DNA from: Methanomicrobiales archaeon
GTDB taxonomy: Archaea; Halobacteriota; Methanomicrobia; Methanomicrobiales; Methanospirillaceae
DNA: 34,673 nt
Direction of reading: 5' to 3'
Assembly (NCBI GenBank): GCA_013415575.1
Contig: JAAEES010000001.1
Span: 1-34,673, forward strand
Part shown: positions 1,698 to 26,426 of the stretch, one piece after another
Numbering within the stretch: the first letter of the stretch is position 1
Layout: every line of letters starts with the position of its first letter
Made by a program: the position numbers and the translations under genes
The notes under the pieces: model-generated
Seen by the model: the letters and a program-made list of their open reading frames with translations, nothing else
Database searches by the model: none
What the model was told of the DNA's origin: nothing

Positions 1698-2161
1698 ACC
1701 GTCTCTCCTCCGGTCGCTTTCTTCCCGGTGTCCGGTTGTCTCATCCGGGCCCTTTTTTCCTCGAGAATGCCCAGAGCCTTGACGATGCCGTCGATGATCG
1801 ACTCCGGTCGTGCCGCACATCCGGGTACGTAGACATCCACGGGGATGATGCGGTCGATTCCTCCCATGATATTGTAGCACTCACGGAAAACGCCTCCTGA
1901 AGTGGCACAGATCCCGACGGCAACCACCACCTTCGGATCAGGGATCTGTTCATAGATATTTTTGATAACCTCCCGGTTCTGTTCATTAACGCCCCCGGTC
2001 ACAACGAAAATGTCAGAATGTTTGGGGTTACCGGTGTTCAGAATTCCGAATCGTTCGACATCGTAGAGGGGAGTGAGACACGCAAGCACCTCGATGTCGC
2101 AGCCGTTGCAGGATGAGGCATCGTAGTGCAGTATCCAGGGGGATCGGGTGAGGTATGTCAT
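1694..2161 (-). CDS. echC: Ech-type hydrogenase small subunit EchC
   Basis: Start refined to MTYLTRSPWILHYDASSCNGCDIEVLACLTP; NuoB-like CxxC...GICATSGG...PGCAARPE cluster ligands; 4-nt overlaps with neighbours. Confidence 0.9.
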   Translation of the reverse strand: MTYLTRSPWILHYDASSCNGCDIEVLACLTPLYDVERFGILNTGNPKHSDIFVVTGGVNEQNREVIKNIYEQIPDPKVVVAVGICATSGGVFRECYNIMGGIDRIIPVDVYVPGCAARPESIIDGIVKALGILEEKRARMRQPDTGKKATGGETV

Positions 2162-5763: not shown

Positions 5764-6411
5764 TCAGGCAGCCGCAGCTTTCTTCTTCTTCCGCTCCAGC
5801 AGCTTCTTGACTTTTTTCAACCGGTAGAGGTCTTCCCGCTCCCGCTCTCCAATGGTGATCTTGATGTATTTCGCCTGGGCCTTTAGTTCCGGTATCAGCA
5901 CCTGCTCCAGGGCATTCACCCTCCGCCGGTTCATCTGGATTTCTTCGCCAAGCCTTCTGAGCGCTGTCTCGGTCTCGGCAAGACCAATGATGAGGTCAAG
6001 TTCGGCCTCAAACTTCTCTGCAGTCTCATCTATTCTCCCGCTCACGCCAAGAGGGCTGTATCCCCGCTCAAGGCCGCTCTGGGAAAACCGTTTTTTCTCT
6101 ATGATGGGGACGGGCACTCCCATGATATTCTTTCCCCGGATATCAAGGGAGATGTGGCGTTTGGTGGCGAAGGAGACTGATTTCAGCGTGACGGGATCAT
6201 CGACGGCCTGAGCGATCAGGAGCGAGCGCTGGGCGCTGTCGGCCACCGTCTCGAGCATATCCCGGGAGTCGGAGACCGTGACCATGATCCGGAAGAATTC
6301 CTGGATGAGGGCATCCATCTTCTCCCTGAGGAGATCCCGTCCCTGCTCAGCAAGCTTGATCTGCGCCCGTTTCCTGATAAGCTCCATCCGGGTTGGATTC
6401 ACCTGCTCCAT
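5764..6411 (-). CDS. atpD: A-type ATP synthase subunit D
   Basis: 215 aa; MEQVNPTRMELIRKRAQIKLAEQGRDLLREKMDAL and RRRVNALEQVLIPELKAQAKYIK, typical of V/A-ATPase D. Confidence 0.95.
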   Translation of the reverse strand: MEQVNPTRMELIRKRAQIKLAEQGRDLLREKMDALIQEFFRIMVTVSDSRDMLETVADSAQRSLLIAQAVDDPVTLKSVSFATKRHISLDIRGKNIMGVPVPIIEKKRFSQSGLERGYSPLGVSGRIDETAEKFEAELDLIIGLAETETALRRLGEEIQMNRRRVNALEQVLIPELKAQAKYIKITIGEREREDLYRLKKVKKLLERKKKKAAAA

Positions 6412-6412
6412 A

Positions 6413-7816
6413 TTATTCAGATCCTGCCTGGTACGAAGGATGGTACCGCTTGATAAACTCGATTTTTATCCGTTTGAGCTCATCTTCCGGTAGCGAAGAG
6501 AGCAGTTCCCAGCCGATGGTGAGGGTATCTTCAATTGACCGGTTCTCATCCCCCTGGGAGATGAACCTGCGCTCGAAATGGTCAGCGAACGTAAGGTATT
6601 TCCGATCAAGATCGGTGAGCGCCTCCTCCCCGACAATCGCCACCAGCCTTCTGAGATCGCGTCCGTACGCGTACGAGGCATAGAGCTGGTCAGCTACATT
6701 CCGGTGATCTTCCCTGGTTTTTCCGGGACCGATGCCGAGGTTCATCAGCCGGGAGAGGCAGGGGAGGGCATCGATGGGAGGATCAGCTCCCCGGCGGAAG
6801 AGGTCACGGGACAGGACGATCTGGCCTTCGGTGATGTACCCGGTCAGATCGGGAACAGGATGGGTAATGTCATCATCCGGCATGGTCAGAATGGGAATCT
6901 GGGTAATGGATCCGGTTTTCCCTTTGATCCTCCCGGCACGTTCGTAGATTGAAGCCAGATCAGTATACATGTACCCGGGATAACCCCGCCGGCCAGGAAC
7001 CTCTTCTCTCGCCGTGGAGATCTCCCGGAGTGCTTCACAGTAGTTGGTCATGTCGGTGAGGATGACCAGGACATGGAGGTTATGGGTATAGGCAAGGAAT
7101 TCAGCAACCGAGAGGGCACACCGCGGGGTTGCCACCCGCTCAATGGTCGGGTCATCGGCAAGGTTCAGGAAAAAGACCACCCGCTCCAGGGCACCGGTCC
7201 GTTCAAAGTCGCCCATGAAGAACGATGCCTCTTTATAGGTAATCCCCATAGCAGCAAAGACCACCGCGAACTGTTCGCCTTCGCCGATCACCTTGCTCTG
7301 CCGTGCGATCTGGGCTGCGAGCTTGTTGGCCGGAAGCCCGGATCCTGAGAATATCGGCAGTTTCTGACCCCTGACAAGGGTATTGAGTGCATCGATCGCC
7401 GAAACTCCGGTCTGGATGAAATCAGAGGGTTTGTCCCTGGCATACGGATTGATGGGCATGCCGGCAATATCTACCGTGTCTTCAGGGATAATGTCCGGCC
7501 TCCCGTCGCGTGGTTTGCCAACACCATTGAAGATTCTCCCCAGCATGTCGAGAGAGACATCGATCCGTGGTGGTTCGCCGGTAAACCTGACACTGGTTAC
7601 CGAGTTGTCAATTCCGCTCGTCCCTTCATACACCTGGACCACGGCCATATCCTTGGAGATATCCAGGATCTGGCCGTTCCGCGTCTCCCCGTCAGGGAGT
7701 TTAATCCGCGCTGTTTCACCGTAAGATGCTCCAACAGGTCGTTCAACAAAGAGGAGAGGGCCGGAGACATAGCTGACGGTGCGATACTCTCTGCTCATCA
7801 GCGATCGGGTCTTCAT
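6413..7816 (-). CDS. atpB: A-type ATP synthase subunit B
   Basis: 467 aa; [17 protein letters not shown]...[21 protein letters not shown]. Confidence 0.96.
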
Positions 7817-9552
7817 ACTTCCACCACCAGGGCCCCGATTTGCTGAGGGATTTTCTCTGACAGTGCCCTGATATCTTCAACAGCGCTGAGTTCCTTCATC
7901 CGGGCGATCTCCGCCTTGAGGGGGACTGACCCGATCTGCTTGAGGGAGACTCCCCGTTCGATAGCATCGGTGATTGCTGTATCGTACGCCTGGATTGCTT
8001 TCAGCATCCAGTACTGCTTGTCGAGGGGGCAGAAGGAATCGGTATCGCTGTAGGCACTCTGCTGCAGGAAATCTTCCCGGATCATCTGTGTCACCTCCAG
8101 AATCGCCTTCTCACTGTCGGGAAGTGCATCCGGCCCGACGAGCTGGACGATCTCCTGGAGCTCCACTTCTTTCTGGAGGAGGTACATCATCCGGTCCCGC
8201 AGGTCCTTCCAGTCGGATCCCACGTTATCGAGATACCAGCTCCGGAGGCTGTCCAGGTAGAGGGAATAGCTCTTGATCCAGTTAACCGAGGGAAAATGCC
8301 GCCGGTAGGCGAGGCTGGTGTCAAGGGCCCAGAATGTTCCGGCAATGCGGAGGGTATTCTGGGTGATCGGCTCAGAAAAGTCACCACCCGGAGGGGATAC
8401 GGCCCCGACAATGGTCACGGATCCTGTCCGGTCGTCAGGTCCCAGGCAGGTCACCCGTCCTGCGCGTTCATAGAACGCTGCCAGACGGGTAGCAAGATAG
8501 GCGGGATATCCCTCCTCGCCCGGCATCTCCTCGAGCCTGCCGGAAACCTCCCGCAGCGCTTCACCCCACCGGGAGGTTGAATCGGCCATGAGGGCAACGT
8601 CATAGCCCATGTCACGGTAATACTCCGCTATAGTGATGCCGGTATAGATGGATGCTTCACGGGCAGCAACAGGCATGTTTGACGTGTTGGCGATCAGGAT
8701 GGTCCGTTCGATCAGGGGAAGACCAGTCCTCGGGTCCACCAGCTCCGGAAATTCCGAGAGGACATCGGTCATCTCGTTCCCCCGTTCCCCACAGCCGATA
8801 TAGACAATGATCTGGGCATCGGCCCATTTGGCAAGCGTTTGTTCTGCCACAGTCTTGCCGGTCCCGAATCCGCCAGGGATCATGGCTGTGCCTCCCTTGG
8901 TGAGAGGAAAGAGGCTGTCAAAGATCCGCTGGCCGGTGATGAGGGGGATGGTCGGGTCCAGTTTCTTCCGGTAAGGTCTCCCTTTCCTGACAGGCCATTT
9001 CTGCAGCATGATGATTGGAATGTTTCCATCAAGAGTGCAGACTGGTTCAGTGAGGGAATATGCTCCGGATTCGATTGCGGTAATTGTTCCGGATACTCCG
9101 GGTGGAACGAGAATGGTGTGCCGGATATGGAATTCCTTAACCTCTCCTATGACACTTCCTCCGGAAACACGATCCCCCTTCTTCGCAGTTGCCAGGAATT
9201 CCCATCGTCGGGAAAGATCGATTCCCGGGACGGCCAGGCCCCGTGAGATGAAACTCCCGCTCTGCTCCACCAGGAGGGGGAGAGGCCGCTGCACTCCGTC
9301 ATAAATAGAGGAGATGAGACCGGGGCCAAGATCGACTGAGAGGGGCTGCCCCGTGTTCTCTACCGGCTCGCCGATGGAGAGGCCGGTGGTGTCTTCATAA
9401 ACCTGAATGACCGCCTCCTCCCGGTCAAGCCTGATGATCTCGCCCGGGAGTTCTTCGTCCCCCACCTTCACCACATCATACATTTTTGAGCCCCGCATCC
9501 CTTCAGCGATCACCACCGGGCCGGAGATACGGGAGATATGACCATGTATCAT
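7813..9552 (-). CDS. atpA: A-type ATP synthase catalytic subunit A
   Basis: 579 aa; Walker [41 protein letters not shown]. Confidence 0.97.
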
Positions 9553-9554
9553 CG

Positions 9555-9875
9555 TTACCGCCTCACCACAATGTTGTACCCGATTGCCCGCTGCAGGAGC
9601 CGCTCGATATAACTCATACCGCCGCCACCCCTCTTGCGGACTGGGATGGGTATGATAATCGGCCGGTAGGTCTTTTCAATTTTCGCCAAGATCTTATCAT
9701 CGAGCACCTGCATGTAGTCCTCGTTCAATGCCACGATTCCGGTATCGTCCCTGAGCAGGAGCTCCGGGATGATCTTCTTCGCCTCATCCATACTCCTCAC
9801 CTCTATGACATCCACACCGGCCAGCCTGAAGCCGGCAGCGGTATCGGGATCGGTCACCACCGAAAATTTATACAT
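9555..9875 (-). CDS. atpF: A-type ATP synthase subunit F
   Basis: Start refined to [26 protein letters not shown]; between atpC and atpA. Confidence 0.9.
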
Positions 9876-10926
9876 GGAATAACTCCCGCTCAAGATCCTC
9901 ATCCGATACTCCCGCATACTTGCACCGGGCAATGATGCGGAGGTTTATCACTTCACCATACTTGGCCCACAGATAGCCGATCACCACACCGATGTCCAGG
10001 GGGTCTCCCCGAAATAAGCGCATTCCTTTCCTCATGAGATAGAGGTCAAGCTCCTTCTCGATGATGGAGATCGTACCCGGACTATACGCCACGGGGGGGA
10101 GGCCCTGGAGAAAATAGTACGGGGTCCCGTCAAGAACAGATACTGCCTCTTCAGGAGAACGCATCGAGGCCATTGCGATGAACTTTTCCCGATCGATGTG
10201 GCCTCCCCCTTCGAGGAAGAGGCTCATCGCAGGCTCGGTCTCGAGGTTATCCCGGATAATTCTCAGCACGTTTTTAATGTTCATCGTGTCGATCTCGGCC
10301 CGGATCAGGTGCCTGATGATCCGATTCTCGGAGCCCCTTCCCTGCACCGCTGCCAGTGCATTCTGGTAGTGGAACAGGTCGAGGGCATATTCGAGGGTGA
10401 CAAGTTCGCGTGATTCAGCCCACTCATCGACTGATTCGGTGAGGGGAATGGCATACGGTATGTTCCAGGTAGCCATCAGATCGATGATGCTCCGCACATC
10501 AGGCTGCTTGAGAAGTTCTGTCAGGGTCGCATCATCAAGCACTCCTGCAGGCACCAGGCATTCAAAGATCTCATCATGGGAAGCATGGATGTTTTTCCCC
10601 CGGAGGATGGTCTTGATGTTCTGGACATCCCAGCGGGAGAGGAAGATCCGGATATAGCCTTCTGCCCGCGTCCCCCGGACGAGATCAGAGATGTTCTGGT
10701 AGGTCCTGATGAGGTTCTTCCGGAGGGCAAAGTCAACAGCAGCAATGCCGGTGTGGATCACACTGGCTTCCTCTATCTCCCGTTTATAGGGGGTATTTTC
10801 CAGTTCTGAGAGAACAGAAGGCAGATCCTGCCTGATGAGCAGCGTATCGTATGATTTTTTATCCAGAAGTACGCTGTGCATCCCCCGTACCCGGGCATTA
10901 ACATACCCGTAGTCCATCACCATCAC
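9868..10926 (-). CDS. atpC: A-type ATP synthase subunit C
   Basis: 352 aa; YGYVNARVRGMHSVLLDKKSYDTLL; subunit C/V-ATPase d-like. Confidence 0.93.
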   Translation of the reverse strand: MMVMDYGYVNARVRGMHSVLLDKKSYDTLLIRQDLPSVLSELENTPYKREIEEASVIHTGIAAVDFALRKNLIRTYQNISDLVRGTRAEGYIRIFLSRWDVQNIKTILRGKNIHASHDEIFECLVPAGVLDDATLTELLKQPDVRSIIDLMATWNIPYAIPLTESVDEWAESRELVTLEYALDLFHYQNALAAVQGRGSENRIIRHLIRAEIDTMNIKNVLRIIRDNLETEPAMSLFLEGGGHIDREKFIAMASMRSPEEAVSVLDGTPYYFLQGLPPVAYSPGTISIIEKELDLYLMRKGMRLFRGDPLDIGVVIGYLWAKYGEVINLRIIARCKYAGVSDEDLERELFHV

Positions 10927-11504
10927 CTGAAAAGAAGAGAATATATCTCTTTTTTCAATGCCTCCTTTGCATTTTCAAACCTCGTTTCCAGGGTGTTGTC
11001 GATTGTGATGCTGTCATCCCCGCTCCGGACAATAAGACCCCCGAGGCATGTGAGATCGGGCACAATGACCAGCCTGGTGCCGGTCTTTCCGGAAGATGCG
11101 GTACAGAGAGGCGCGTCCTTCGGATCGAGATGAACTACTGCCTCACTGGCAGGAATACCTTCCAGGGATTCATCAAGCAGGTGCGAAAAGCTTGTCGGAT
11201 ACCGGGGGTCCATCCGGCAGGAATCAAGGCGTTTTTCTGCCTCTGCAAACGCTTCCCGGTAGATTCTTTCCTTTTCGACAATGAGATCGGCCTTCAATTC
11301 TTCGGAAAGAAGGTACAGGGATCGGTTCCTCTCAATCTTCACGCTGCTCTCCGCTTCCGCGAGCAGCCTCTTGTTAATCGCCTCTGCCTCACGCTGTGCA
11401 TCTGTTATGACAGATTCGGCAGCTCTCCTGGCACTCTCCAGGATTGACTGTACCTTTTCCTGGGCACTGAGCTCCATGGACTGGAGCAGTTCATTGTACG
11501 CCAT
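10923..11504 (-). CDS. atpE: A-type ATP synthase subunit E
   Basis: 193 aa coiled-coil, AQEKVQSILESARRAAESVITDAQREAEAI; operon position. Confidence 0.9.
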   Translation of the reverse strand: MAYNELLQSMELSAQEKVQSILESARRAAESVITDAQREAEAINKRLLAEAESSVKIERNRSLYLLSEELKADLIVEKERIYREAFAEAEKRLDSCRMDPRYPTSFSHLLDESLEGIPASEAVVHLDPKDAPLCTASSGKTGTRLVIVPDLTCLGGLIVRSGDDSITIDNTLETRFENAKEALKKEIYSLLFR

Positions 11505-11606
11505 CGTCTCTCAGCCTGTCCCGCCTCCGGATAATGGGGACTGCCCGTTACAGACTCTTCCCGGAAACAGGACTCATGTTCGATAGGTGATCTCTGCACT
11601 CACACG

Positions 11607-11855
11607 TCACAGCATGATGATAATCATTGAAGCGACCACAAAACCGAGGATGACCAGGGTTTCCGGTATTGCTTCCAGGACGATAATTGATCCCGCAGTC
11701 TCGGGTTTTTCGGCAATGGTCCCCGCACCTGCGGCACCAATACGGTTTTGAGCCCATGCCGTCCCGATTGCTCCTGCTGCAAACGCGATTGCAGCGCCGA
11801 TTGGCTTTTCCCAACCGGCCATCACGATTTCGGTTGCTGTTGCGGCGTCAGCCAT
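11607..11855 (-). CDS. atpK: A-type ATP synthase c subunit (K), two-helix proteolipid
   Basis: 82 aa; two hydrophobic helices; carboxylate in VLEAIPETLVILGF; GGAGATGA ribosome-binding site upstream. Confidence 0.9.
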   Translation of the reverse strand: MADAATATEIVMAGWEKPIGAAIAFAAGAIGTAWAQNRIGAAGAGTIAEKPETAGSIIVLEAIPETLVILGFVVASMIIIML

Positions 11856-11982
11856 ACATTCATCTCCGATATGTGATAGAATAAAGGTTATATTATTTAA
11901 AGTACATAGCTTTACGACATGGCATCTCCTCGAAAAATCCTTTATTTAGTATAATTCTCTTAATATACAGTTAAAAATTATA

Positions 11983-13902
11983 TCAGGTTTCTTTCTCTCT
12001 GCCGAACGGGCGATAGAGCTCGCCACCCCCTTCATAGAATTTTGAATAAAATTCCACGAGGTGCAGTCGCATTGAGTGAATACTCGGACTGAACATGCCG
12101 AGGATTATATTGAGGGAATGAAGAAGCACGGCGATGAGCACCCCGACAGCGACGATCCCGACCGCTCCTGCAAGTTCATTGGCGACCAGAGCGAGGATTA
12201 CCGATGCCATTCCAAGGGCCATGATCCTGGCATAGGAGAGAATGTTCCCCATGGTCCCCGCAATCTCTATTGCACCCCGGACACCGCCTCCATACAGCAG
12301 GACCGGCAATGCTGCAATGATGACGAAAATGCCTGCGAGCAGGAATGCCCCCGGAATGAGCTCTGCAAATACGAGAACCAGCAGAATAATGCCGATAATC
12401 ATTGCGAGCATCCCGCATTTCTCGCAGAAATGCTTTTTACTCTTCCGGTAGTAAGCGTTGAGCATTCCAATGCCCAGGCCAATCGATACATGGAGGATAC
12501 CAAGCACGATGGAAAAAATAAGCAGCGGTATCATGGCTTCGATCCTGTTCAGGGTCACCCCCCCGATGGTTACCGGGTGCAGCCATCCCATTTCTTCTCC
12601 AAAATTCCCAAAGAATTCCCCGTAGAGGAACCCGAAAAAAATGGTGGATATTGAAGAGATGATCAGGATATTCATCAGCTGCTTGAGCCATTCGAGTTTT
12701 TTGAAATAGAGTTTCATAACGATGGCAAAGCCAAGGATACACAACCCGTACCCGATGTCTCCGACGATGACTCCAAAAAAGATGGGGAAGAATATCGCGA
12801 TGAACGGACTTGGATCGATCTCCATGTATTTCGGCGGGGTTATCAGGCGGTTAAAAAATTCAAACGGGCGCACCCATCGCGGATTGTCATAGAATGCAGG
12901 GGCATACTCCATCTCTTCGGAAGGAACATCCATCTCGGTCATGACCACCCGGCCCCCGAACGTCTCTTTCATGGCCGCCTTCGTCCTCTTCAGGTATTTT
13001 CTGGGTACCCACCCCCTGACCAGGATTGTGTTATCTGACTGGCCGAAGTGTGCAAAAGCCTGCAATTCTTTCTCCCTATCCTCAAGGATCCGCTGGAAGA
13101 CTGACAATTTTTGATAGAACACGGAGGAGAGACTGGCAAGGTCCTGGTCAATTGTTGCCATCTCTTCATCGATTTCGAGTTTTTTTCTTCCGATAAGTGC
13201 GATGGCCTTGGGGAGCGGCATATTTGCATAGTCTTCCGGGATCCTTACCTCATTGACATTCTGCGAGAAGAGAAACGAATGGACCTGTTCTGAAAATTTC
13301 TTATTGAAGACCGTGATCACGGCGGTGGTCTGCTCATCGAGATCCGCGGCAATGAATTCAAACTGGTTCCTGGTGATATTCTTCAGCACGGAACGGATGG
13401 GCTCAAGGACATCCCTGAACTCCTTCTGGATCAGCAGAACGGTCACTTCAAAGCCTTCCAGGAGAGGGATCTGGCTCTCCAGGGGCTGAATTTTTTCGAT
13501 GATTTTCTCGTACCGCTCAAGAGCTGTTTTCGACAGCTCAAGATCACCCTTCCTTCCGGCCAGAGCCCGTGTCCGGCTTTCAAGCTCCCCGATCTCACTG
13601 GAAATGACTGATATCAGTTCTGTCGCGCTCTTCAGGTGGAGTTCCTGATAGATGCGATCCTGCTCCTGCCGGTTTTCAGGCATCCTGGGAAGGATCTGGT
13701 AAATGCCGTTAATTTTAACCAGGAGAAGAGTGAGGTCAACCTGGGTCGTAGACTCCATCGGACGGAAGACCTCATTGAGCTGAGGAAAGCTCTCAGTGGC
13801 ATCCTGGAGATGAACCGTCCCTTCCTGGTAGAGGACGTCGATGATCTCCTGATAATCATTCTTTGGTCCCACCACGAGGACATTTGTCATTCTCTGGAGC
13901 AT
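11983..13902 (-). CDS. atpI: A-type ATP synthase subunit I (a subunit)
   Basis: 639 aa; soluble N-half and polytopic C-half; LLHSLNIILGMFSPSIHSMRLHLVEFYSKFYEGGG. Confidence 0.95.
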   Translation of the reverse strand: MLQRMTNVLVVGPKNDYQEIIDVLYQEGTVHLQDATESFPQLNEVFRPMESTTQVDLTLLLVKINGIYQILPRMPENRQEQDRIYQELHLKSATELISVISSEIGELESRTRALAGRKGDLELSKTALERYEKIIEKIQPLESQIPLLEGFEVTVLLIQKEFRDVLEPIRSVLKNITRNQFEFIAADLDEQTTAVITVFNKKFSEQVHSFLFSQNVNEVRIPEDYANMPLPKAIALIGRKKLEIDEEMATIDQDLASLSSVFYQKLSVFQRILEDREKELQAFAHFGQSDNTILVRGWVPRKYLKRTKAAMKETFGGRVVMTEMDVPSEEMEYAPAFYDNPRWVRPFEFFNRLITPPKYMEIDPSPFIAIFFPIFFGVIVGDIGYGLCILGFAIVMKLYFKKLEWLKQLMNILIISSISTIFFGFLYGEFFGNFGEEMGWLHPVTIGGVTLNRIEAMIPLLIFSIVLGILHVSIGLGIGMLNAYYRKSKKHFCEKCGMLAMIIGIILLVLVFAELIPGAFLLAGIFVIIAALPVLLYGGGVRGAIEIAGTMGNILSYARIMALGMASVILALVANELAGAVGIVAVGVLIAVLLHSLNIILGMFSPSIHSMRLHLVEFYSKFYEGGGELYRPFGREKET

Positions 13903-13913
13903 ACTCTCTTAAC

Positions 13914-14234
13914 CTACGGAAATGCCACCCGTTCCAGAATTTTTTCTGCTGCAGCTGCAATCCGGCCTTCACCATTCTCCAGAATCCGCGTTCTCTCTCC
14001 TGCAGCCCGTTCCCTGATCTGTTTAAGATCCTCTGAAATCTGCGCCATTCCCTCATCCCGTCGTTTCACAGCCTGTCGGGATCCATCCTCCCGTGCCCGG
14101 ACGAGGGTCTGTTCTGCCGCCGTTTTCGCTTGACTGATGATCTGTTCTGCTTCCTTCCTGGCCTTTTCTTCTTTTTCCTTCAGCTCGAGCTCCTTGGTTC
14201 TGACCTGTTCGAGGAGCGAGGTATCACCGGTCAT
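13914..14234 (-). CDS. atpH: A-type ATP synthase subunit H
   Basis: 106 aa coiled-coil protein preceding atpI, as in methanogen atpH. Confidence 0.85.
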   Translation of the reverse strand: MTGDTSLLEQVRTKELELKEKEEKARKEAEQIISQAKTAAEQTLVRAREDGSRQAVKRRDEGMAQISEDLKQIRERAAGERTRILENGEGRIAAAAEKILERVAFP

Positions 14235-14508
14235 GGGTCCTCCTGTTATAACCCGTGCCTGTGTTTGAGGAGTGCCGAGACTCCGAACTGGGGGGGTGCA
14301 GAATCTATTCTGCTGCCCTGAGTTCTTGCAGCTGCTATGCGCTCTTCGCAGCGCCGTAAAGCCGCCATTTTCAATTTCTCTATCATTTCCGTATTGGAAA
14401 GATTCATACGAGTCCCGGCGATCCCTTCAGACAGGATCGGTGAGTCCCTTGCCCTGTGAGTATATATAGATTTCGACGAAGCCCCTCCGGAATGGTAAAG
14501 AAATTAAC

Positions 14509-14520
14509 TCTTATAAAAAT
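14509..14520 (+). promoter_or_regulatory. Candidate TATA box for universal stress protein gene
   Basis: ctcttataaaaatc about 90 nt upstream of ATG 14609. Confidence 0.4.
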
Positions 14521-14608
14521 CAATACTGTTTCCGACACTGGTACTACCCGGAAAACTCCAATGGTTTTAAGAGCTGTCCGGGTATTTCAGCTACAGGAGT
14601 GGTCGGGG

Positions 14609-15529
14609 ATGTTTCAAAAAGTATTATTCGCGACTGATTTTTCAGAATATGCAAAAAAAGCTCTCGATTGTATTGCAGGTTTTCCGAATACCAGGGAGAT
14701 ACTCCTGCTCCATATTCTCGATGAGGCAAGATCTCCGTGGGGAGGGGAGATACATGAAACCCTTACCCCGTATGAAAGGAATTCTCTCAGGGAGGAAAAG
14801 CATCACCTTGAAAAACTGGTAAAAAACCTCAAAGTGACCGTAGAAGTACGAGCATCGTCCGATATTGCCGGGGAAATACTCGAAACCGCAGAAGAGAGAG
14901 AAGTCTCCCTCATCGTTGTGGGTGCCCGGGGAAAGAGCGTTGTCGATGGCATCCTTCTTGGCAGCGTATCGATGGCAATCATCCGCCGGAGTACCCTGAA
15001 TGTCCTGGTCATGCGCCACAAAGTGACCGAAGGGCTCTCGGGAAAGACGTATGAACTGTTATGCCCGATGATACTCTCCCGGATTCTTTGCCCGATTGAT
15101 TTTTCACCCCCTTCCGACCGTGCGATAGACCTTCTTCGTTCAACAGAGGGGATTGGCGAGGTCATCCTCCTGAACGTAGTCTCCCGTGGCGAAACGGTAG
15201 CTGATATCGAGAAGGCAATCGGGGAAGCAGAGCGTCAGTTCGAGGCAATTGGCAGGACGCTCACCGGACAGGGCATCAGGGTCAGGACGATGGTACGGAC
15301 AGGGGACCCCGGGTCGGAAATCATCAAAGTGGCCGAGGAAGAGGATGTATCGGTCATCTGGATCAGCTCACTTGGAAAAGGGTGGTTCCGGGAACTGGTA
15401 CTCGGGAGTACCGCTCATACCGTCGCCATGAATGCCAAACAACCGGTTATCATTATCCGCACTTCCAGGCCGGAGAGAACGGATCAGGCGATATCTGAGA
15501 GCATCATATCCGGGCATCACGGTGCTTGA
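14609..15529 (+). CDS. Tandem-domain universal stress protein
   Basis: 306 aa; two UspA-like domains (MFQKVLFATDFSEYAKKAL...VVGARGKSVVDGILLGSVS and ILCPIDFSPPSDRAIDLL...ISSLGKGWFRELVLGSTAHTV). Confidence 0.9.
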   Translation: MFQKVLFATDFSEYAKKALDCIAGFPNTREILLLHILDEARSPWGGEIHETLTPYERNSLREEKHHLEKLVKNLKVTVEVRASSDIAGEILETAEEREVSLIVVGARGKSVVDGILLGSVSMAIIRRSTLNVLVMRHKVTEGLSGKTYELLCPMILSRILCPIDFSPPSDRAIDLLRSTEGIGEVILLNVVSRGETVADIEKAIGEAERQFEAIGRTLTGQGIRVRTMVRTGDPGSEIIKVAEEEDVSVIWISSLGKGWFRELVLGSTAHTVAMNAKQPVIIIRTSRPERTDQAISESIISGHHGA

Positions 15530-15630: not shown

Positions 15631-16068
15631 TCATACCACTGCGAGCCTGCCGAGGACACCCAGGACAAACGCCATCACCAGCAACGCGACGGTTTCGGTC
15701 AAACCAAGGATAATCATAAGATTGCCAAATCCTTTACCCGTCTCTCCCATTGTATCGCTGGCGCAGGCACCGCACTTGCCCTGGAAATATGCAGAAAGAC
15801 CAATGGCCGCGCCGCAGAAGGCGCCGATGCCCCATAAATCGTTGCCCTGTATCGCCAGGTCCACCATCGAATTCATGACGATGAACCCGTAAATCGTCTG
15901 GGTGAGCGGTGCGGCAGCAAATGCAACAAGCATGAAAGCCGCCGGCTTGTTCTGGATGTAATTCTTTTTCCAGGCGCCGATCGCCGCCATTCCGGCAGTG
16001 CCTGAACCCGCGGCAGATCCCAAACCGGCCAAGCCAAGCACCAGGCCCAATCCCAGATCCATGGTCAT
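15631..16068 (-). CDS. ntpK: V-type ATPase c subunit (NtpK-like), four-helix proteolipid
   Basis: 145 aa; two fused hairpins; PLTQTIYGF, FQGKCG and GLTETVALLV motifs. Confidence 0.9.
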   Translation of the reverse strand: MTMDLGLGLVLGLAGLGSAAGSGTAGMAAIGAWKKNYIQNKPAAFMLVAFAAAPLTQTIYGFIVMNSMVDLAIQGNDLWGIGAFCGAAIGLSAYFQGKCGACASDTMGETGKGFGNLMIILGLTETVALLVMAFVLGVLGRLAVV

Positions 16069-16081
16069 AGTATCTTCCTTT

Positions 16082-17848
16082 TTACTCCCTGAACGGATTG
16101 AATGCAGTCCCGCTCCATGTCACGTTCGCATGCCCTGAAAATTCAAGCACATTGAGCCGTACACCGTGCACGAGGACCGACATCAATCCCAGGATGAGGT
16201 TTAAGCTATGGCCGGATAAAAGAATTACGGCACCTACCACCAGTGCAACGACACCACTGCCGAATCCGGATGCGAGGTAATTAGTCGTATTTGCCACCGC
16301 CAGGGTTGCCATGCCCACGGCAAAAAGACGAATATAGGAGATAACGTCAGTGATATTACTCATAAAACTCAATGCGATCGTTCCCATCCCCTCCCCGATG
16401 CCTCTGAGGATATTCGATCGCCTGGGGTTGGTGAAAAGAATTACGAGGATAATTCCTCCAGCAACCAGCCACATCCCCAATGCGGGAAAAGGTTCTCCCA
16501 GTATCAGCGTCCTTGCGAGGAAGAAAGCCATCCAGAGAATGCAGATATAGCCGATATCAGCAAGCACGTTCAGCGATGGAAACTTCAGCAATGCCCGCCA
16601 GGAATGGGCAACCGATAGATGCAGGGCTCCTAAAAAGAAGCAGAGCGATGTCACGAACGCGGCGTCATTGAGTTGTGGAACGAGCGCGGGCAATCCCCAC
16701 TGGCCAAAAAAAGTGCCGGTCAGCAGTCCCCAGATAACGGTACTGAGCCCCAGTAGATAGAAAAGGGAGACAGCCGTCTTCATCTCCCTGTCCATCATCA
16801 TCTTTTTCTTCAGCCATATTGACAGCAGGAACGCTATTCCGATATATGCCAGTCCATACCCGGCATCACCAATGAGAATACCGAAAAATATGCTGAAAAA
16901 TACCAGGAAGACCATGCTGATATCCATCTCATGATATCCGGGTGTCAGTCCCAGGAGTCCGAGAACTGGTTTAATCAGCTCGGCCCACCGGGAGTTGCGC
17001 AGGAGTGTTGGCACATTGTCCTCAAAGGAGGGTTCAGCGATGAGTATTCCCCACCTGTTGGTTTTGGCCTCACCAATGAGGTGGTCTGCCCGATCAAACG
17101 GGATGTATCCTGTTACATAGCTGAGTGCACCATCATTGCCCATCCCGGCCAGGACCTGCTGGAATTCGATCTCTTTCTCCAATTTCCGGTTCACTTCGGA
17201 AAGACTGTCATAGTACCCTGCGGAACTGGCGATCTCGGATGCAATGATCTCCGCGTTCCGGTTATTTTCATCGAGACGTGATCTGAGCGCGGAAAGCCCC
17301 TGTTCAGGGGGAATGACCTCCTGAAAGTCGCATTCGAACTGCCGTCGTGATATTCCCACGACGTTGGCGATGTCGCCAGCAGTACCTAGTGTCCTGACTA
17401 CCACGTCATCGGGAAATTTCCCGATTTCCTTGACCGGAACCTGGTATAATTTCAGGTAAATACCCTGGTCTATCAGGGACTTTACCTGGTTTTGATCGAT
17501 ATCGCCCCATCGTTCCCATTCGGCAATCTGACCGATGATATTCCGTGCAGAGAGCTCGAGTTGTTCCTGTCTCCGTCCCATTTCAATGATACCGGTGGCA
17601 ACCGCCATCCAGTCACCGCTCATCTGTCGTTGCGGCCGGGTTTTCCGCTCTGCCATGGATACCTTGTTCAGGACATCGAGTGAAGAATTGATCAGGGCAA
17701 CCTTTTCCAGGAGTCCGGATATATCCCTGCTTTCAGGCAGATTCTGGTGTTCGACCTGCATAACACCCAGTTTTCTCAGTGCGGCTATGGTCGCTTCCGC
17801 ATCCTTTGACTGGAAGATAACGGTGGCCTTTTTCATCGGTACGATCAT
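16082..17848 (-). CDS. ntpI: V-type ATPase subunit I (NtpI-like)
   Basis: 588 aa; C-terminal LSGHSLNLILGLMSVLVHGVRLNVLEFSGH. Confidence 0.92.
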   Translation of the reverse strand: MIVPMKKATVIFQSKDAEATIAALRKLGVMQVEHQNLPESRDISGLLEKVALINSSLDVLNKVSMAERKTRPQRQMSGDWMAVATGIIEMGRRQEQLELSARNIIGQIAEWERWGDIDQNQVKSLIDQGIYLKLYQVPVKEIGKFPDDVVVRTLGTAGDIANVVGISRRQFECDFQEVIPPEQGLSALRSRLDENNRNAEIIASEIASSAGYYDSLSEVNRKLEKEIEFQQVLAGMGNDGALSYVTGYIPFDRADHLIGEAKTNRWGILIAEPSFEDNVPTLLRNSRWAELIKPVLGLLGLTPGYHEMDISMVFLVFFSIFFGILIGDAGYGLAYIGIAFLLSIWLKKKMMMDREMKTAVSLFYLLGLSTVIWGLLTGTFFGQWGLPALVPQLNDAAFVTSLCFFLGALHLSVAHSWRALLKFPSLNVLADIGYICILWMAFFLARTLILGEPFPALGMWLVAGGIILVILFTNPRRSNILRGIGEGMGTIALSFMSNITDVISYIRLFAVGMATLAVANTTNYLASGFGSGVVALVVGAVILLSGHSLNLILGLMSVLVHGVRLNVLEFSGHANVTWSGTAFNPFRE

Positions 17849-18456
17849 TGTGCCACCTCTTCGAGGGCGGATTCCTCGATCTTGTTCTTGGCAATTTTAC
17901 TCCGGCCGACAGCATTGGTCATCTGGTCGCCGATATAGATTTTAATGAGGCGTATTGCCTCCTTTGCCTCCGGGATTTTCACCTTCTCGAACAGGTTGAC
18001 GCGCTGGGTAGTGACCCGCAGTTCCTGGTTCAGAACAGATATTCCCTGCTGGAGAACGCGCACTTCCTCACGCAGTGAAACGAGTTCCCGAAGTGTGTCG
18101 AGTCCCGTATCCAGCCAGAGCGGCATCAGAAACAAGTCATACTCAGCCGATCCGAACACAACACGTTCGAAGACCGGGATATCAACTCCGGCAATATTCC
18201 TCCTGGTGGTGATTACCATTTCGGGCTTCAGCCACTTCCTCACCCCTGGAACTTCGGACAGGAGCCCTGACCACACCTCTGACGATCGCCTCTGATCCGA
18301 CAGCGATCGTTCCCTCTCCCGGAGAACGCCTTGCTGGTGCAGAATTTCAAGCTGGATCTGCTGCTTTTTCAGCTGCAGGGTAGGCAGAAACCTCTCGTAT
18401 TGCCGCAGTGCATCCCTCTGGGTCTTCAGTTCACCCTGCGAAAATTTAATTTTCAT
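17845..18456 (-). CDS. ntpD: V-type ATPase subunit D (NtpD-like)
   Basis: 203 aa; [27 protein letters not shown]; operon position. Confidence 0.9.
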
Positions 18457-19750
18457 GGTTTTCTGGCCAGTATTGATCGATCAGGGATCTCTTGATTCCC
18501 GTTTCCTCCGGCAGGAAGCAGTCGTGCAGAATCTCCCAGCCGAGGTCGAGCGCTTTCTCGAGGGGGATATTTACTTTCAGGGACATCATTTTTTCCTCGA
18601 AGAGTTTTCCGTATTTGAGGAGTTTCAAATCCCAGGCACTCATCTGGAATCCCATCGACTGTTTTTCCTGCGTTTCGCGATAATCGGCAAAGAGTTGGAT
18701 CATGGAATCCATAATCGTCCGGTGGTCATCCCTGGTTTTCCCGTTCACGAGCTGCTTTAAGCGGCTCAACGAACCGAATGGTTCGATAACACCATTTTTG
18801 AGGTAAAATTGTCCCTCCGTGATGTATCCGGTATTGTCCGGAATCGGATGGGTAACATCGTCTCCCGGCATGGTGGTCACCGCAAGGATGGTGATCGAGC
18901 CTGCGGTCTCGAAATCAACCGCTTTTTCATACCGGGCTGCAAGGAGACTGTAGAGGTCCCCGGGATATCCGCGGTTCGAAGGTATCTGCTGCATCGTAAT
19001 GGCGATCTCTTTTAATGCATCGCAGAAATTGCTCATATCTGTCAGCAATACAAGAACCCGTTTTCCATCGAGGGCGAAATGTTCTGCCACTGCAAGGCTG
19101 ATATCAGGAACCAGCAGACACTCGACAACCGGATCGGCTGCCGTATGCATGAATATGATCGAATGGGAGAGTGCGCCGTGCTCCTCGAGAGTATCCCTGA
19201 AGAAGAGATAATCATCGTATTTTAAGCCCATCCCTCCCAGGATGATGATGTCAACCTCTGCCTGTGTCCCGATCCTGGCGAGAAGTTCGTTGTATGGCTC
19301 TCCGGAGATTGAAAATATCGGGAGTTTCTGGGATTCGACGAGTGAATTGAACACGTCGATCATGGGTATGCCGGTCCGGATCATTTTGCTGGGAATTATC
19401 CGCTTCACCGGGTTGACAGGCGGCCCCCCGATATCAGTCAGGTTTTCAGAAAGATCAGGCCCGTTGTCGAGAGGACGGCCGCTTCCGTTAAAGACCCTGC
19501 CGAGAAGCAAATCACCGGTAGCAATCCGCATCGGGTGCCCGAGAAACCGCACCCTGTCTCCCGTGGAAATGCCCCTGCTGCCTGCGAAGACCTGTAAGAA
19601 TACCTGGTTCCCGTCAAGGCGGATCACCTGGGCGAGAGATGTTCCCCGGCGGGTTGTGACTTCTGCAAGCTCCGTATTACCGACGTTTTCAGCCCCGACG
19701 GTAATGACATCGCCGACAATCTGGTTTATGCTCGTATAGACTTTATACAT
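18446..19750 (-). CDS. ntpB: V-type ATPase subunit B (NtpB-like)
   Basis: Start refined to [38 protein letters not shown]. Confidence 0.93.
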
Positions 19751-21488
19751 GGCCGCCATCCTTCGATCGCACGAGGAGAAATGCCCGGATCTCTCTCTCG
19801 GTCTTTGTAAATTCATCACTCTGCCAGGGCGTCGAGTTCCAGCCCCGGAAGAGCTGTCTCAGCTGCTGGAAAAAACGGAGCGCTTCATCTTTGTTTCCAA
19901 AAACGAATTCCGTTTCAATAATACGGTGAATAAAATCAAAAATGTAGATCTGCCGTTCCCGGGAAGTTGCTTCATCTACCGGATCAAAGGCATTCTGCTG
20001 CAGGTAGACAAAATCGAAAAATTCAGCTTTGAGAAAATTCACATAATCATGGAGCGAGGTTCCTTCTTCACCGACGACTTTCATCATCTGGGCAATATCA
20101 TTGCCTTTCCGCAGGATTCCCTGCCCTCTCTCCTTCTGTTCCTCATCGATGAAGCTCCTGTATTTGCTCCAGCTGATGAGCGGGTCAATGGCGGGATACC
20201 GTCGGGCATCGGAACGACTGCGGGAAAGGCCGTGGAAGGCACCAACGACTTTCAGTGTTGCCTGGGTCACCGGCTCCTCAAAATTACCTCCTGCAGGGCT
20301 GACGGCCCCGCCGATAGTAACCGACCCCGTTGAACCATCATGGAGACGAACCATCCCCGCCCGTTCATAGAATGAGGCGATTCGCGACTCCAGGTATGCA
20401 GGGAACGCCTCCTCTCCGGGAATTTCCTCCAGCCTTCCGGACATTTCACGCATGGCCTGGGCCCAGCGGGAGGTTGAATCCGCGAGAAGAAGCACATTGA
20501 GTCCCATCTGGCGATAGTATTCCGCAATAGTGACTGCCGTATAAACGCTTGATTCCCTCGCTGCTACGGGCATCGAACTGGTATTACAGATAATGACCGT
20601 GCGATCACTCAGCGGCCGGTTGGTTCTCGGGTCGGTGATGGCAGGGAACGTTCGTAACGTTTCAACAATCTCGCCCGCCCGCTCGCCGCAGGCAGCGATG
20701 ATAACGATATCGACATCGGCATGGCGGCTGATCAACTGCTGTAAAACGGTTTTTCCCGCTCCGAAAGGACCCGGGATACAGTACGTTCCTCCCAGGGCAA
20801 CGGGAAAGAGCGAATCTATCAGACGCATTTTGGTAACCAGGGGTTCACCCGGCTTAAGCCGCTCGGCATAGGCCTGAATCGGGATCTTCACGGGCCAGGT
20901 CTGACTTAAAAATACAGGATGAATTTTTCCGTCCTGATCTTTTACCTGGGCGACGGGCTGGCGTATCGTGAACCTGCCGGCATTTTCAATTGATACAAGA
21001 TTGTAATTTCCTGTCAGGGTGAACGGGACCAGGCAGTAGTGGCGGAATATTTTCTCTTCCACAAATCCGATTTTATCTCCCGCCTTCACCCTTTCTCCGG
21101 GTTTTTTCAACGGAGTGAATTCCCACGTTTTCGATTCCGGAAGTCCTGTAACATAAACCCCTCTCTGCAGGAAAAAACCGCATTGCTCGGCGATCTCCGG
21201 CAGGGGATTCTGGAGACCGTCGTAGATCTGGCCAAGCATTCCCGGGCCGAGCTCGATCGACAGGAGTTCGCCGGTAAATTCAACGTCCTCTCCGATTTTT
21301 AAGCCGGTGGTCGCCTCATAGACCTGCATCTCGGCAAGATTGCCACGGACACGGATGATTTCGGATTTCAGACGCTCATCCCCGTGCCGGATATATGCTA
21401 CTTCGTTCTGCATGACGGGAGTATCAAAAGATACGGTAACCATGTTGCCGTTGATTTTCATGATTCTCCCCTGTGACAGCGCAGTCAT
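19743..21488 (-). CDS. ntpA: V-type ATPase catalytic subunit A (NtpA-like)
   Basis: 581 aa; Walker [41 protein letters not shown]. Confidence 0.96.
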
Positions 21489-22028
21489 TCACTCCACCCC
21501 GGGTGCCAGCGCCTCCCGGAGCAGGAGGGCTGCATCTGCACTTCGTATTCTCTCCCAGCGGTGGAGTATCTGCAACTTGTAAGCATAGGTAATCAGGGCG
21601 TCCAGATCGAAATAGTGGGCTTTGGCGAGTTCATCCAGGGTCTTCCAGCGGGTCTCGTCGAGCACCCTCTCACCTTCAAGCAATGAAGGGCTCATCGTTG
21701 CCGCAATAACGACGGGGGCGGGGGAAGGTCCGGGATACGTGTCCGGGCGGAGATAGCGTCCAGCCTCGATGTGCCGCCGGCCAGCCCGCACCTTTACCAG
21801 CTCGTTCCTCAACGTGGTATCGAACCGGATCCACTCCTCAATGAAGTGATGCCGTCTGCCTTGTTCCGAGTAGTGTTCGGGTTGTGGCAGGGTTCTCAAG
21901 ATCTGATAATCTTTTTCCGGGATGAACCGGTGGCATGCTTCAAGGAACTGCTCGAAGGAAAATGGCGGTTTCATTCCGAATTGCAGCGTTGGCAGGCTCG
22001 AGAGCAGGTAAGGGTAAAAATCCGCCAT
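21489..22028 (-). CDS. DUF2764-like V-ATPase operon protein
   Basis: 179 aa MADFYPYLLSSLPTLQFGMKPPFSFEQFLEACHRFI; located between E and A as in Chlamydia/Borrelia V-ATPase operons. Confidence 0.8.
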   Translation of the reverse strand: MADFYPYLLSSLPTLQFGMKPPFSFEQFLEACHRFIPEKDYQILRTLPQPEHYSEQGRRHHFIEEWIRFDTTLRNELVKVRAGRRHIEAGRYLRPDTYPGPSPAPVVIAATMSPSLLEGERVLDETRWKTLDELAKAHYFDLDALITYAYKLQILHRWERIRSADAALLLREALAPGVE

Positions 22029-22034
22029 CTTCGT

Positions 22035-22646
22035 TCAGTCCTCCACTTCCCCCTGAAGTATCTTTTTCAACTTCGGTTTGAGGCAGGAAACGATATATTC
22101 TGCGAGTGCACGGTCGGAAAAATCATAGGAGGATCTTCCACCGTCAAAACTGATGGTAAACCCGCCCTGGATATCTCCTCTTTGCCGTAAGGAAATATCT
22201 CTCTCTGTTTCCTTCCGGAGTCTGTTCAGGTAATGCTTTTCCAGAAGTTCCAGATCGTTACCATTGACCATGACGATAACTTCGGTCCGCTCCGCGGTGG
22301 AATAATTTCTGATCAGTTCCGTGAGGAGTCCGGAGATTACTTCCGGGGTGAGCGCCTGCCGGGTGTCTGCAACTACGATTCGTTTGAGCATGGCGTTGAT
22401 CTCTTCTCGTAAGGTGAGAAGGAGATCTCTTCCTGCCTGGGCGAGCAGCGCCCTTTCTCTCTCATCCTCGCGGCGGATCCTCTCATGGGCGGCGGAGATC
22501 ATCTCTTCAACCTCGATCTTTGCCTGGTTGAGAATCGCATCGGCTTTCTGCTGTGCTGCAGATTCAATGAGTCGGGCCTTTTCCTCCGCAGCCCTGATGC
22601 CTTCCTGGTTTATTTTCTCAATGAGGTCGCTGATATCTTCCGGCAT
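22035..22646 (-). CDS. ntpE: V-type ATPase subunit E (NtpE-like)
   Basis: 203 aa coiled-coil; IEEMISAAHERIRREDERERALLAQAGRDLLLTLREEIN; first gene of operon. Confidence 0.88.
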   Translation of the reverse strand: MPEDISDLIEKINQEGIRAAEEKARLIESAAQQKADAILNQAKIEVEEMISAAHERIRREDERERALLAQAGRDLLLTLREEINAMLKRIVVADTRQALTPEVISGLLTELIRNYSTAERTEVIVMVNGNDLELLEKHYLNRLRKETERDISLRQRGDIQGGFTISFDGGRSSYDFSDRALAEYIVSCLKPKLKKILQGEVED

Positions 22647-22950: not shown

Positions 22951-23682
22951 GTGTTCATGCTAGAACTTGACGCGGTGACAAAAAAATTCGGCGGGCTGGT
23001 TGCGGTCAACGCAGTGGACCTCCATGTCGGCGAGGGAGAGATCCTGGGGCTTGTCGGGCCGAACGGTGCGGGGAAGACCACGCTCCTGAATCTGATATCC
23101 GGTATTTACCGCCCGGACGGTGGAAGGATCCGCTACCGCGGTGAGGAGATATCCCACCTTTCCATGGATCGTGTCTGCCGGAAAGGTATTGCAAAGACAT
23201 TCCAGCACACGCATTCCTTCCCCGGTCTTACCGCCCGTGAAAGCGTCATGATCGGATCCCTCTTTGGCAAAAGCCACCATCCTACAATGGATGAAGCCTC
23301 GCGGGAGGCTGCGGAACTCCTCGATCGGGTCGGGTTTCCCCGGGAACGGATTGATATGCCCCTCTCAAACCTGAACGTAATTGAACTCCGGAGAACCCAG
23401 CTTGCCCGGGCCCTTGCCTCACGCCCGAAAATCCTCCTCCTCGATGAAATGATGACCGGTCTCAACCCAAGCGAGAGCGGAGAGGCAGTTGCGCTCATCA
23501 AATCTCTCCGCGACGATGGTCTCACTGTCGTCGTGATCGAGCATGTCATGCGGGTTATTCTCGGGGTATCCGATCGCCTGGTGGTTCTCGACAGGGGAGA
23601 GAAAATTGCAGAGGGAGTCCCTGACCGGGTTGTGCGGGACAAGCGGGTAATAGATTCGTATCTTGGCGAACGATATGCATGA
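22951..23682 (+). CDS. livG: Branched-chain amino acid ABC transporter ATP-binding protein LivG
   Basis: GTG 22951 or ATG 22957; Walker A GPNGAGKTT; AAGGAGG upstream; LivG-like C-terminal insert. Confidence 0.9.
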   Translation: MFMLELDAVTKKFGGLVAVNAVDLHVGEGEILGLVGPNGAGKTTLLNLISGIYRPDGGRIRYRGEEISHLSMDRVCRKGIAKTFQHTHSFPGLTARESVMIGSLFGKSHHPTMDEASREAAELLDRVGFPRERIDMPLSNLNVIELRRTQLARALASRPKILLLDEMMTGLNPSESGEAVALIKSLRDDGLTVVVIEHVMRVILGVSDRLVVLDRGEKIAEGVPDRVVRDKRVIDSYLGERYA

Positions 23683-24395
23683 ACGTTCCTGTGTCACCCC
23701 TCCTGGAGGTTCGTAACCTCTCAGTCTTTTATTCCGGTCTCCAGGTGCTCTGGGATGTCTCCCTCTCGGTTGATAGCGGGGAGATTGTTACCATCCTCGG
23801 CGCAAACGGCGCCGGTAAAACCACGCTCGTCCAAAGCATCTTCGGGCTGGTCGGGGAACGGCATGGGCAGGTCTTCTTCGGGGACACCGATATCACCGGC
23901 CTTCCTGCTTATGATGTGGTGACCAGGGGGCTCTCCCTGGTCCCGGAAAAGCGGGAACTTTTCCCCAAGATGACGGTCATCGAGAACCTTGAACTCGGCG
24001 GCTTTCCCCGGCCGGAGAAGGCAGCCGGTTACAATGAGATGTTTGCGCTCTTCCCTATCCTTGAGGAGCGGAAAGACCAACTTGCCGGGACGCTCTCGGG
24101 AGGTGAGCAGCAGATGCTTGCCATCGCCCGTGCACTCATGGCCCGGCCTTCCATGCTCGTCCTGGATGAGCCGTCACTCGGCCTCTCACCGCTGCTGGTG
24201 TCGACAGTCCTTGATGCGGTTGGAACGCTCAACCAATCAGGTCTCTCCATTCTGCTGGTCGAGCAGAATGTCCAGCACGCCCTGGAGATCTCACACCGGG
24301 GCTACATCCTTGAGAACGGAAGGATCATCAGGGAAGGCTCTTCTGAAGAACTGCTCCACGATGACCAGATCCGGGCAGCATACCTGGGTATCTGA
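23679..24395 (+). CDS. livF: Branched-chain amino acid ABC transporter ATP-binding protein LivF
   Basis: GANGAGKTT, LSGGEQQMLAIARALMARPSMLVLDEPSLGLSP; ATGA overlap with livG. Confidence 0.92.
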   Translation: MNVPVSPLLEVRNLSVFYSGLQVLWDVSLSVDSGEIVTILGANGAGKTTLVQSIFGLVGERHGQVFFGDTDITGLPAYDVVTRGLSLVPEKRELFPKMTVIENLELGGFPRPEKAAGYNEMFALFPILEERKDQLAGTLSGGEQQMLAIARALMARPSMLVLDEPSLGLSPLLVSTVLDAVGTLNQSGLSILLVEQNVQHALEISHRGYILENGRIIREGSSEELLHDDQIRAAYLGI

Positions 24396-24488
24396 ATCGC
24401 CCTGCCAGTCTGTGCCCGGGCATGTTCTTCACCTCGTTTCTCTCTCGAGTATCTGGCTAAGAAGACCGGTTCATTTTATGAGGTCGAT

Positions 24489-24496
24489 TAAAAAAG
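24489..24496 (-). terminator. Oligo-T tract after livM
   Basis: Plus strand aaaaaagg gives a T-rich run about 25 nt beyond livM stop on minus strand. Confidence 0.35.
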
Positions 24497-24519
24497 GAGG
24501 TGCCGGGATGTCGGGGAGA

Positions 24520-25509
24520 TCAGGATGTCTTCTGCCTCCCCTCGAAATACTTCCTGACCCGGTCCGGCAGGGAGATGAGCCCTTTTGGCAGGAAGATGAT
24601 GATCAGGACCAGCAGCAGGCCTATGATGATGAAGCGTGCGTAGGTAATTCCGAGACTCTGGAGACCGTCCCACAGGACGGTGATAACGATGGTCCCTACG
24701 ATAGGGCCGGCAAGTGTCCCGAGCCCGCCGGAAATGGAATAGATGATCGGCCAGAATGAGATATCGACACTGAAGATCTCGGGAGTGATGTATCCCATGT
24801 GGTGGATCTCGAGCGCCCCGGCAATCCCGGAAAAGTACGCACTGACCACAAAGGCAAAGAGGCGGTACCTGACCGGGTCGATGCCTGCGGCCCGTGCCTC
24901 CATCTCGTTCTCCCGTATGGCGGCGAAGGCCAGCCCAACCCGTGATCTAAGAATCAGCCAGAAGAACAGGATAATAAGTGCAGCAATGAGGACGATGGAA
25001 TAGTACTCGACGAGCAGGTAGTTTGGGACAGTAGAACTGATCAGCCGTGGCGCGGCAATCCCGTCCCACCCGCCGGTTACAGTGGCAAACTGGCTCACCA
25101 TCAGGGTCTGGATGATTATGGCGAATCCGAAGGTCACCATGGCCAGGAACCACTCCTTCAGGCGTACACAGATCACTCCAATGAAAAGGCCAACGAGGGC
25201 CGCGGCTCCGCCACCGACGAGCATGGTTAAATACGGGGAGATGCCGCTTGCCGAGGCCACCATGGCGGAGATATATCCCCCAAGTCCGAAGAAGGCTGCA
25301 TGCCCGAGCGACCCCTGTCCGGTGTAGGTGAGGAAATTCCAGGATGAAGCATAGATGATGAAGATGACCATCAGGATAAGGAGGGTCAGAATATAGAGGT
25401 TCAGCCCGAAGATGAGGGGCAGAATAATGGCCATGATTAAGAGAAAAATGATTCCATAGAGCCTGGTCTTTTTAGACTCAATGCCCAGGGTTTTATTCAT
25501 ATCAATCAT
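24520..25509 (-). CDS. livM: Branched-chain amino acid ABC transporter permease LivM
   Basis: Start refined to MIDMNKTLGIESKKTRLYG; YASSWNFLTYTGQGSLGHAAFFGLGGY. Confidence 0.9.
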   Translation of the reverse strand: MIDMNKTLGIESKKTRLYGIIFLLIMAIILPLIFGLNLYILTLLILMVIFIIYASSWNFLTYTGQGSLGHAAFFGLGGYISAMVASASGISPYLTMLVGGGAAALVGLFIGVICVRLKEWFLAMVTFGFAIIIQTLMVSQFATVTGGWDGIAAPRLISSTVPNYLLVEYYSIVLIAALIILFFWLILRSRVGLAFAAIRENEMEARAAGIDPVRYRLFAFVVSAYFSGIAGALEIHHMGYITPEIFSVDISFWPIIYSISGGLGTLAGPIVGTIVITVLWDGLQSLGITYARFIIIGLLLVLIIIFLPKGLISLPDRVRKYFEGRQKTS

Positions 25510-26387: not shown

Positions 26388-26426
26388 AGATCAGCATCCA
26401 CCTTCCGTACTAAAAAGGATGATTAT

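Follow-up and report, generated by a model that had tools for sequence, protein, structure and literature searches.

The closest described counterpart of the protein considered here is NtpK, the ring subunit of the Enterococcus hirae Na+-ATPase, for which the Na+ ligands (the side chains of T64, Q65, Y68, Q110 and E139, and the backbone carbonyl of L61) are taken as stated in PMC2359735. In archaea, c subunits with several hairpins have been described, with three in M. jannaschii and thirteen in Methanopyrus kandleri (PMC2359735). Among methanogens, Methanospirillum hungatei carries three AoA1 clusters (Aha1-3), which have been called unusual and of which two are adjacent by locus tag (PMC4704411).

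The window, by which we mean the whole 34,673-nt stretch of DNA that was analysed, comes from a metagenome-assembled genome (MAG) of 229 contigs (1.4 Mb, 78% complete, 3.7% contamination). It carries a bacterial-type ATPase operon next to an archaeal one, and the nearest named relatives are Methanoregulaceae/Methanomicrobiales MAGs. We consider it quite probable that the small K protein of the former is the rotor subunit of a Na+-translocating V-ATPase, likeliest an ATP-driven Na+ pump, and that its operon came from an Omnitrophota-related bacterium and spread by exchange at a single slot. The features on which the argument draws are as follows.

5764..14234, minus strand: archaeal A1AO operon (H, I, K, E, C, F, A, B, D), immediately downstream of the bacterial-type operon (Pfam, NCBIfam).
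14456..15529, plus strand: universal stress protein (usp) gene, between the two ATPase operons, a conserved landmark of the slot (PF00582, synteny).
15631..16068, minus strand: subunit K (c, proteolipid), 145 aa, four TM helices, one predicted Na+ site (ORF, NF005174, profile, AlphaFold model).
15694..15696, minus strand: TM4 carboxylate E125 (NtpK E139) of K (profile alignment, 77 homologues).
15781..15783, minus strand: TM3 Q96 (NtpK Q110) of K (profile alignment, 77 homologues).
15889..15912, minus strand: TM2 half-site of K, A53-P54-L55-T56-Q57-T58-I59-Y60, with no carboxylate at position 55 (NtpK alignment; P, Q and Y invariant, T/S, n=77).
16082..17848, minus strand: subunit I (a), 588 aa (best family NF004429, 425.6 bits, under its cut-off of 799).
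17845..18456, minus strand: subunit D, central stalk (NF002565, 209.3 bits, cut-off 189).
18446..19819, minus strand: subunit B (NF002555, 739.6 bits, cut-off 431).
19743..21488, minus strand: subunit A, catalytic (NF003220, 761.8 bits, cut-off 470).
21489..22028, minus strand: DUF2764 protein, 179 aa, all alpha (PF10962).
22035..22646, minus strand: subunit E, peripheral stalk (best family NF002424, 119.2 bits, under its cut-off of 241; related operons have a homologous gene in this position).
22951..27734, strand not specified: branched-chain amino-acid ABC transporter genes LivG, F, M, H and K, the other flank of the slot (Pfam for the genes at 22954 and 26430, synteny, flank tree).

Past the end of the two ATPase operons and on the same strand lie Ech/Mbh-like membrane hydrogenase or complex-I-like genes (253-4925, minus strand; 49-kDa, 30-kDa, 20-kDa, NuoH-like and antiporter-like). 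Further A1AO genes are found on other contigs of the same MAG; the additional A-type ATPase A, B, C and F genes on three of these (G000:C79, G000:C96 and G000:C67) may represent one genuine third operon together with a copy from another strain or from a contaminant.

At 15631-16068 the plus strand contains stops, and the minus strand is an open 145-aa frame in which the motifs listed by a first-pass annotation (PLTQTIYGF, FQGKCG and LTETVALL) are all present. The four-helix proteolipid reported there is borne out by two PF00137 hairpins, by a match over residues 5-138 to the spirochaete-type NCBIfam model NF005174, 'V-type ATP synthase subunit K' (162.9 bits, curated cut-off 127), and by an AlphaFold model built from a 50-sequence alignment (mean pLDDT 93.7), whose helices 3-38, 47-73, 79-110 and 114-144 form a four-helix hairpin pair. 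A comparison of such a model with NtpK had been suggested as a check, and Foldseek matched the model to eukaryotic V-ATPase proteolipids and to the E. hirae ring 2bl2_A (TMq 0.77, probability 1.00). The K family profile likewise found E. hirae NtpK (2bl2/2cyd/3aou) as its top match in the PDB (E 6.6e-6). This link required the family profile, as single-sequence phmmer of K against the PDB gave weak matches to chloroplast c rings only.

In the profile alignment, NtpK P62, T64, Q65, Y68, Q110 and E139 fall on P54, T56, Q57, Y60, Q96 and E125 of K, so that all the side-chain ligands of NtpK pair with identical residues. The first-pass annotation had drawn these equivalences from motifs read by eye; they now stand in register by profile alignment to 2bl2. 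It had also noted alanine at the position of L61, which is Ala53 in K and alanine in 73 of the 77 homologues. Across these homologues, the most distant at 37% identity, Q57, Y60 and Q96 do not change, position 56 is T in 49 and S in 28, and E125 is kept in all 75 of the 77 whose sequence reaches that column. Only 16 of the 145 columns are invariant, and four of the five side-chain site residues are among them (hypergeometric 4.8e-4, a guide value, since alignment columns are not independent). In hairpin 1, L55 replaces the carboxylate, which is absent from that hairpin in all homologues, and S22 replaces the glutamine; therefore there is one site per four helices, in agreement with the single carboxylate-bearing hairpin described earlier. 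That K is a rotor subunit with a predicted Na+ site is thus well supported by the comparison of both sequence and fold.

What kind of enzyme does K belong to? The minus-strand gene order is E, DUF2764, A, B, D, I, K. K, B and D score above the cut-offs of spirochaete-type NCBIfam models (NF005174, NF002555 and NF002565), and A and B fall far below those of the archaeal equivalogs (555.9 bits against a cut-off of 972 for TIGR01043, and 339.4 against 845 for TIGR01041). On these sequence grounds the operon is a V-ATPase of the spirochaete/PVC type, not an archaeal ATP synthase. The V-ATPase assignment of the first-pass annotation thus stands, while the bacterial-type identity of the operon and the A1AO operon adjoining it had been overlooked. 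The catalytic subunit looks intact, with a nearly invariant P-loop (GPFGAGKT, in the region G240-T247); homologues of subunit B align from 19750, where the conserved start probably lies (434 aa); and R507 (SYIR) and R564 (RLN) of subunit I are invariant in 80 homologues.

Pfam and NCBIfam searches found no subunit C or F in the E-DUF2764-A-B-D-I-K operon, and genome-wide searches gave no match to PF01992 or PF01990 in Victivallis vadensis or in three Omnitrophota, possibly with incomplete genomes, that carry this operon too. This type of enzyme seems to manage without canonical C and F genes. It is tempting to propose that the DUF2764 protein is a shortened, highly diverged subunit C (d), and this is probably the case. 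A 78-sequence DUF2764 profile gave a weak, collinear match to the third repeat of subunit C (PF01992; pairwise P 5.5e-4); a shallower profile comparison with five subunit C sequences, and a search of the DUF2764 profile against the PDB, gave no match. The AlphaFold model is all alpha (pLDDT 91.5), and its highest-probability Foldseek match, a Vo chain of the Thermus V/A-ATPase, is not significant (E 0.72, probability 0.38); that chain has 322 aa, and its length and chain letter fit subunit C.

The genomic setting of the operon gives the more important result. Among 232 genomes of the class Methanomicrobia, the bacterial-type operon occurs in 26 and a multi-hairpin c subunit in 57, and none has both, against 6.4 co-occurrences expected (p 4e-4, for genomes of which many are incomplete and without phylogenetic correction). 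The c subunits of the 57 usually have six hairpins and five complete Na+ sites. In the six-hairpin form, of about 481-485 aa, PQTQxxYG is followed by four ETQAIYG and then by ETFAIFG, and helix 1 of the later hairpins carries Q; hairpin 1 has no carboxylate, and the last hairpin lacks the Q and Y for a next site. In this way n hairpins make n-1 sites, and the same logic gives one site for the two hairpins of K and NtpK. An example is L128:9239-10681(+), with five carboxylates and the complete Na+ pattern, in an A-type ATPase operon; others are found in Methanomicrobiales loci L100, L102, L104, L106-L108, L127, L129-L136 and L144, and L103 and L105 encode three-hairpin proteins of about 243 aa.

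The window's genus has the layout (SSF symporter)-LivKHM-LivFG-(slot)-usp-A1AO. The slot holds the bacterial-type operon in the window and in G001, G002, G008 and G011, and an A-type operon with a six-hairpin c subunit in G006, G009 and G003, the contigs of the last two ending before the far flank. A second genus shows the same alternation (G019, G171 and G172 versus G031 and G173). Bacterial-type and six-hairpin operons are thus exchanged in this slot at shared flanks. In the tree of the Liv flank, the window is sister to the six-hairpin genome G006 (99/99), which argues that the slot was swapped in situ and repeatedly; to fit the well-supported branches, the slot state must have changed at least three times. 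The usp copies of six-hairpin genomes have about 41-43% identity to that of the window, against 53-77% in the others; since usp diverges more between slot states, the exchanged segment may include it. Arrival of usp along with the bacterial operon was considered and rejected, as usp is absent from all Omnitrophota loci compared. In G007, of the same genus, the A1AO operon is inverted and lies on the opposite side of the bacterial-type operon (L112), which suggests local rearrangement around the slot. We would put at about even chances the reading that one Methanomicrobiales slot is a place where entire rotary ATPases of the Na+ type are traded, the six-hairpin archaeal enzyme (five sites per six hairpins) and the Omnitrophota V-ATPase (one site per two) replacing one another repeatedly by recombination in the flanks, with a change of ion/ATP ratio and the coupling ion kept.

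How, then, might the bacterial-type enzyme work? Each K would hold one Na+ between its two hairpins, bound by T56, Q57 and the A53 carbonyl of TM2, Q96 of TM3 and E125 of TM4, with Y60 steadying the E125 glutamate. As the ring turned, E125 would release its ion and take up the next one where it faces the conserved subunit I arginine(s), and the DUF2764 protein would be the likely stand-in for subunit C. The analysis shows the rotor subunit and its ligand set, the type of operon, the phylogenetic nesting of the archaeal copies and the exchange at the slot; Na+ as the actual ion, the direction and the DUF2764 role are what we infer.

The enzyme is probably an ATP-driven Na+ pump. This role is the likeliest because the cell keeps other A1AO ATPases, and also because of the low density of sites in the ring. 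As those ATPases persist in the same genomes, ATP synthesis would not depend on the bacterial-type enzyme. The argument from site density should be taken with caution, given that four-helix, one-site c subunits also occur in archaeal ATP synthases, as in Pyrococcus furiosus, and that the predecessor in the slot has about five sites per six hairpins; the direction is therefore unreadable from stoichiometry. Of the first-pass reading of a Na+-translocating, likely hydrolytic V-type ATPase, the first part is well supported, with the full NtpK ligand set conserved family-wide and full sites in the slot partner as well; hydrolysis is a plausibility argument only. Rather unlikely, though the strongest of the alternatives, is that the enzyme serves as an additional ATP synthase, driven by Na+ and living on the gradient made by the methyltransferase Mtr. 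Methanoregula-type methanogens are said to use this gradient with a V-type ATP synthase (PMC10579272), and a catalytic subunit that looks intact would suit synthesis as well. However, other operons of the A1AO type, with single-hairpin c subunits, are present in the genome, and one site per two hairpins would mean fewer ions per ATP, which would make synthesis harder for hydrogenotrophs with their low ion-motive force.

As to the ion, it is improbable that H+, or either ion, is bound in the living cell and that the Na+ ligands of the ring are kept as a relic of descent. Na+-type enzymes can carry protons when Na+ is absent, and some of the ligands persist in H+ enzymes (PMC2359735); the c subunit of the adjoining A1AO operon, a single hairpin of 82 aa, has just such a partial set (Q and PET, no Tyr), a pattern as in the Thermus c subunit. 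In K, however, the full set is retained down to 37% identity while about 90% of the columns vary, and complete sites are found in each of the two enzymes that occupy the slot. A Na+ pump remains the reading that we prefer.

In a tree of subunits A, B, D and I (the best 80 matches as rows, under a quick LG+G4 model), the archaeal copies fall in a single clade (100) within the Omnitrophota. A constraint uniting all 26 Omnitrophota is rejected (p 5.8e-5), and one limited to the nearest 17 is not rejected (p 0.07). The nesting and the rejected constraint together support transfer into archaea, from a donor that can be placed only broadly, as Omnitrophota-related. In line with this placement, subunit B shares 85-94% identity with other methanogen copies, 79-83% with most of the nearest Omnitrophota and about 74-76% with Lentisphaerota and Spirochaetota. 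We propose that the operon would have passed once from an Omnitrophota-related bacterium to Methanomicrobiales, and would later have spread among them by in-situ exchange with the resident six-hairpin Na+-type A-ATPase, beside usp and the A1AO operon. That the operon is instead a contaminant or a mis-binned bacterial contig, as the 229-contig source and near-relative operons under bacterial labels (L011 and L015) might suggest, is scarcely credible and is refuted by recurrent synteny across independent genomes: the operon shares one contig with the A1AO operon and the Ech-like genes, and the same gene order occurs in 10 or more genomes, in one of them on a single 2.17-Mb contig. L011, labelled Deltaproteobacteria, has 93% identity in B and is likely a mis-binned methanogen contig; L015, labelled Planctomycetales, has 83% in B and is sister to the archaeal clade, and its label may be wrong.

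Rotary ATPases are often viewed as core enzymes that are slowly exchanged, and here a whole bacterial-type enzyme has replaced an archaeal one at the same methanogen locus, in a swap that apparently retains Na+ as the ion and changes the design of the rotor. The in-slot swap of two independently built Na+ rings is evidence, beyond the reading of motifs, that it is Na+ that selection retains. Genome pairs that share their flanks and differ in the slot, such as the window's genome and G006, make directly testable the cost and benefit of a different gear ratio to a cell near the energetic limit. We found no paper on a bacterial-type ATPase in methanogens, on the function of DUF2764 or on six-hairpin c subunits, a weak absence in each case, with most subscription papers outside the search.

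Compared with E. hirae NtpK (2bl2, 2cyd, 3aou), K has the same four helices, one site per subunit, ligands at aligned positions and a hairpin 1 free of carboxylate; it differs in its sequence (about 23% identity), in Ala for L61 and in that its Na+ site is predicted from sequence. The operon order is also another than that of the E. hirae system, and the methanogen operon has no recognisable C or F gene. With the multi-hairpin c subunits of M. jannaschii and M. kandleri K shares the site logic, and the six-hairpin form fills the same slot as the K operon, whereas K itself has two hairpins and one site. The archaeal A1AO ATP synthase belongs to the same rotary superfamily but has another gene order, C and F subunits and a single-hairpin c. 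The spirochaete/PVC-type V-ATPases of bacteria match in the order E-DUF2764-A-B-D-I-K and in the K, B and D subfamilies, over their cut-offs; what differs is the host, a methanogenic archaeon, and the placement of the archaeal copies in a clade of their own within Omnitrophota. Finally, the horizontal transfer of the atp operon in Thaumarchaeota (PMC6863869) is alike in that a whole V/A-ATPase operon moves between lineages; there, however, the transfer is among Thaumarchaeota and the enzyme is presumed to pump protons, while here an Omnitrophota-type operon has passed to methanogens and is exchanged at one fixed slot. The rotor is of a known kind; what is new is that the enzyme has been swapped across domains while the predicted ion specificity stayed the same.
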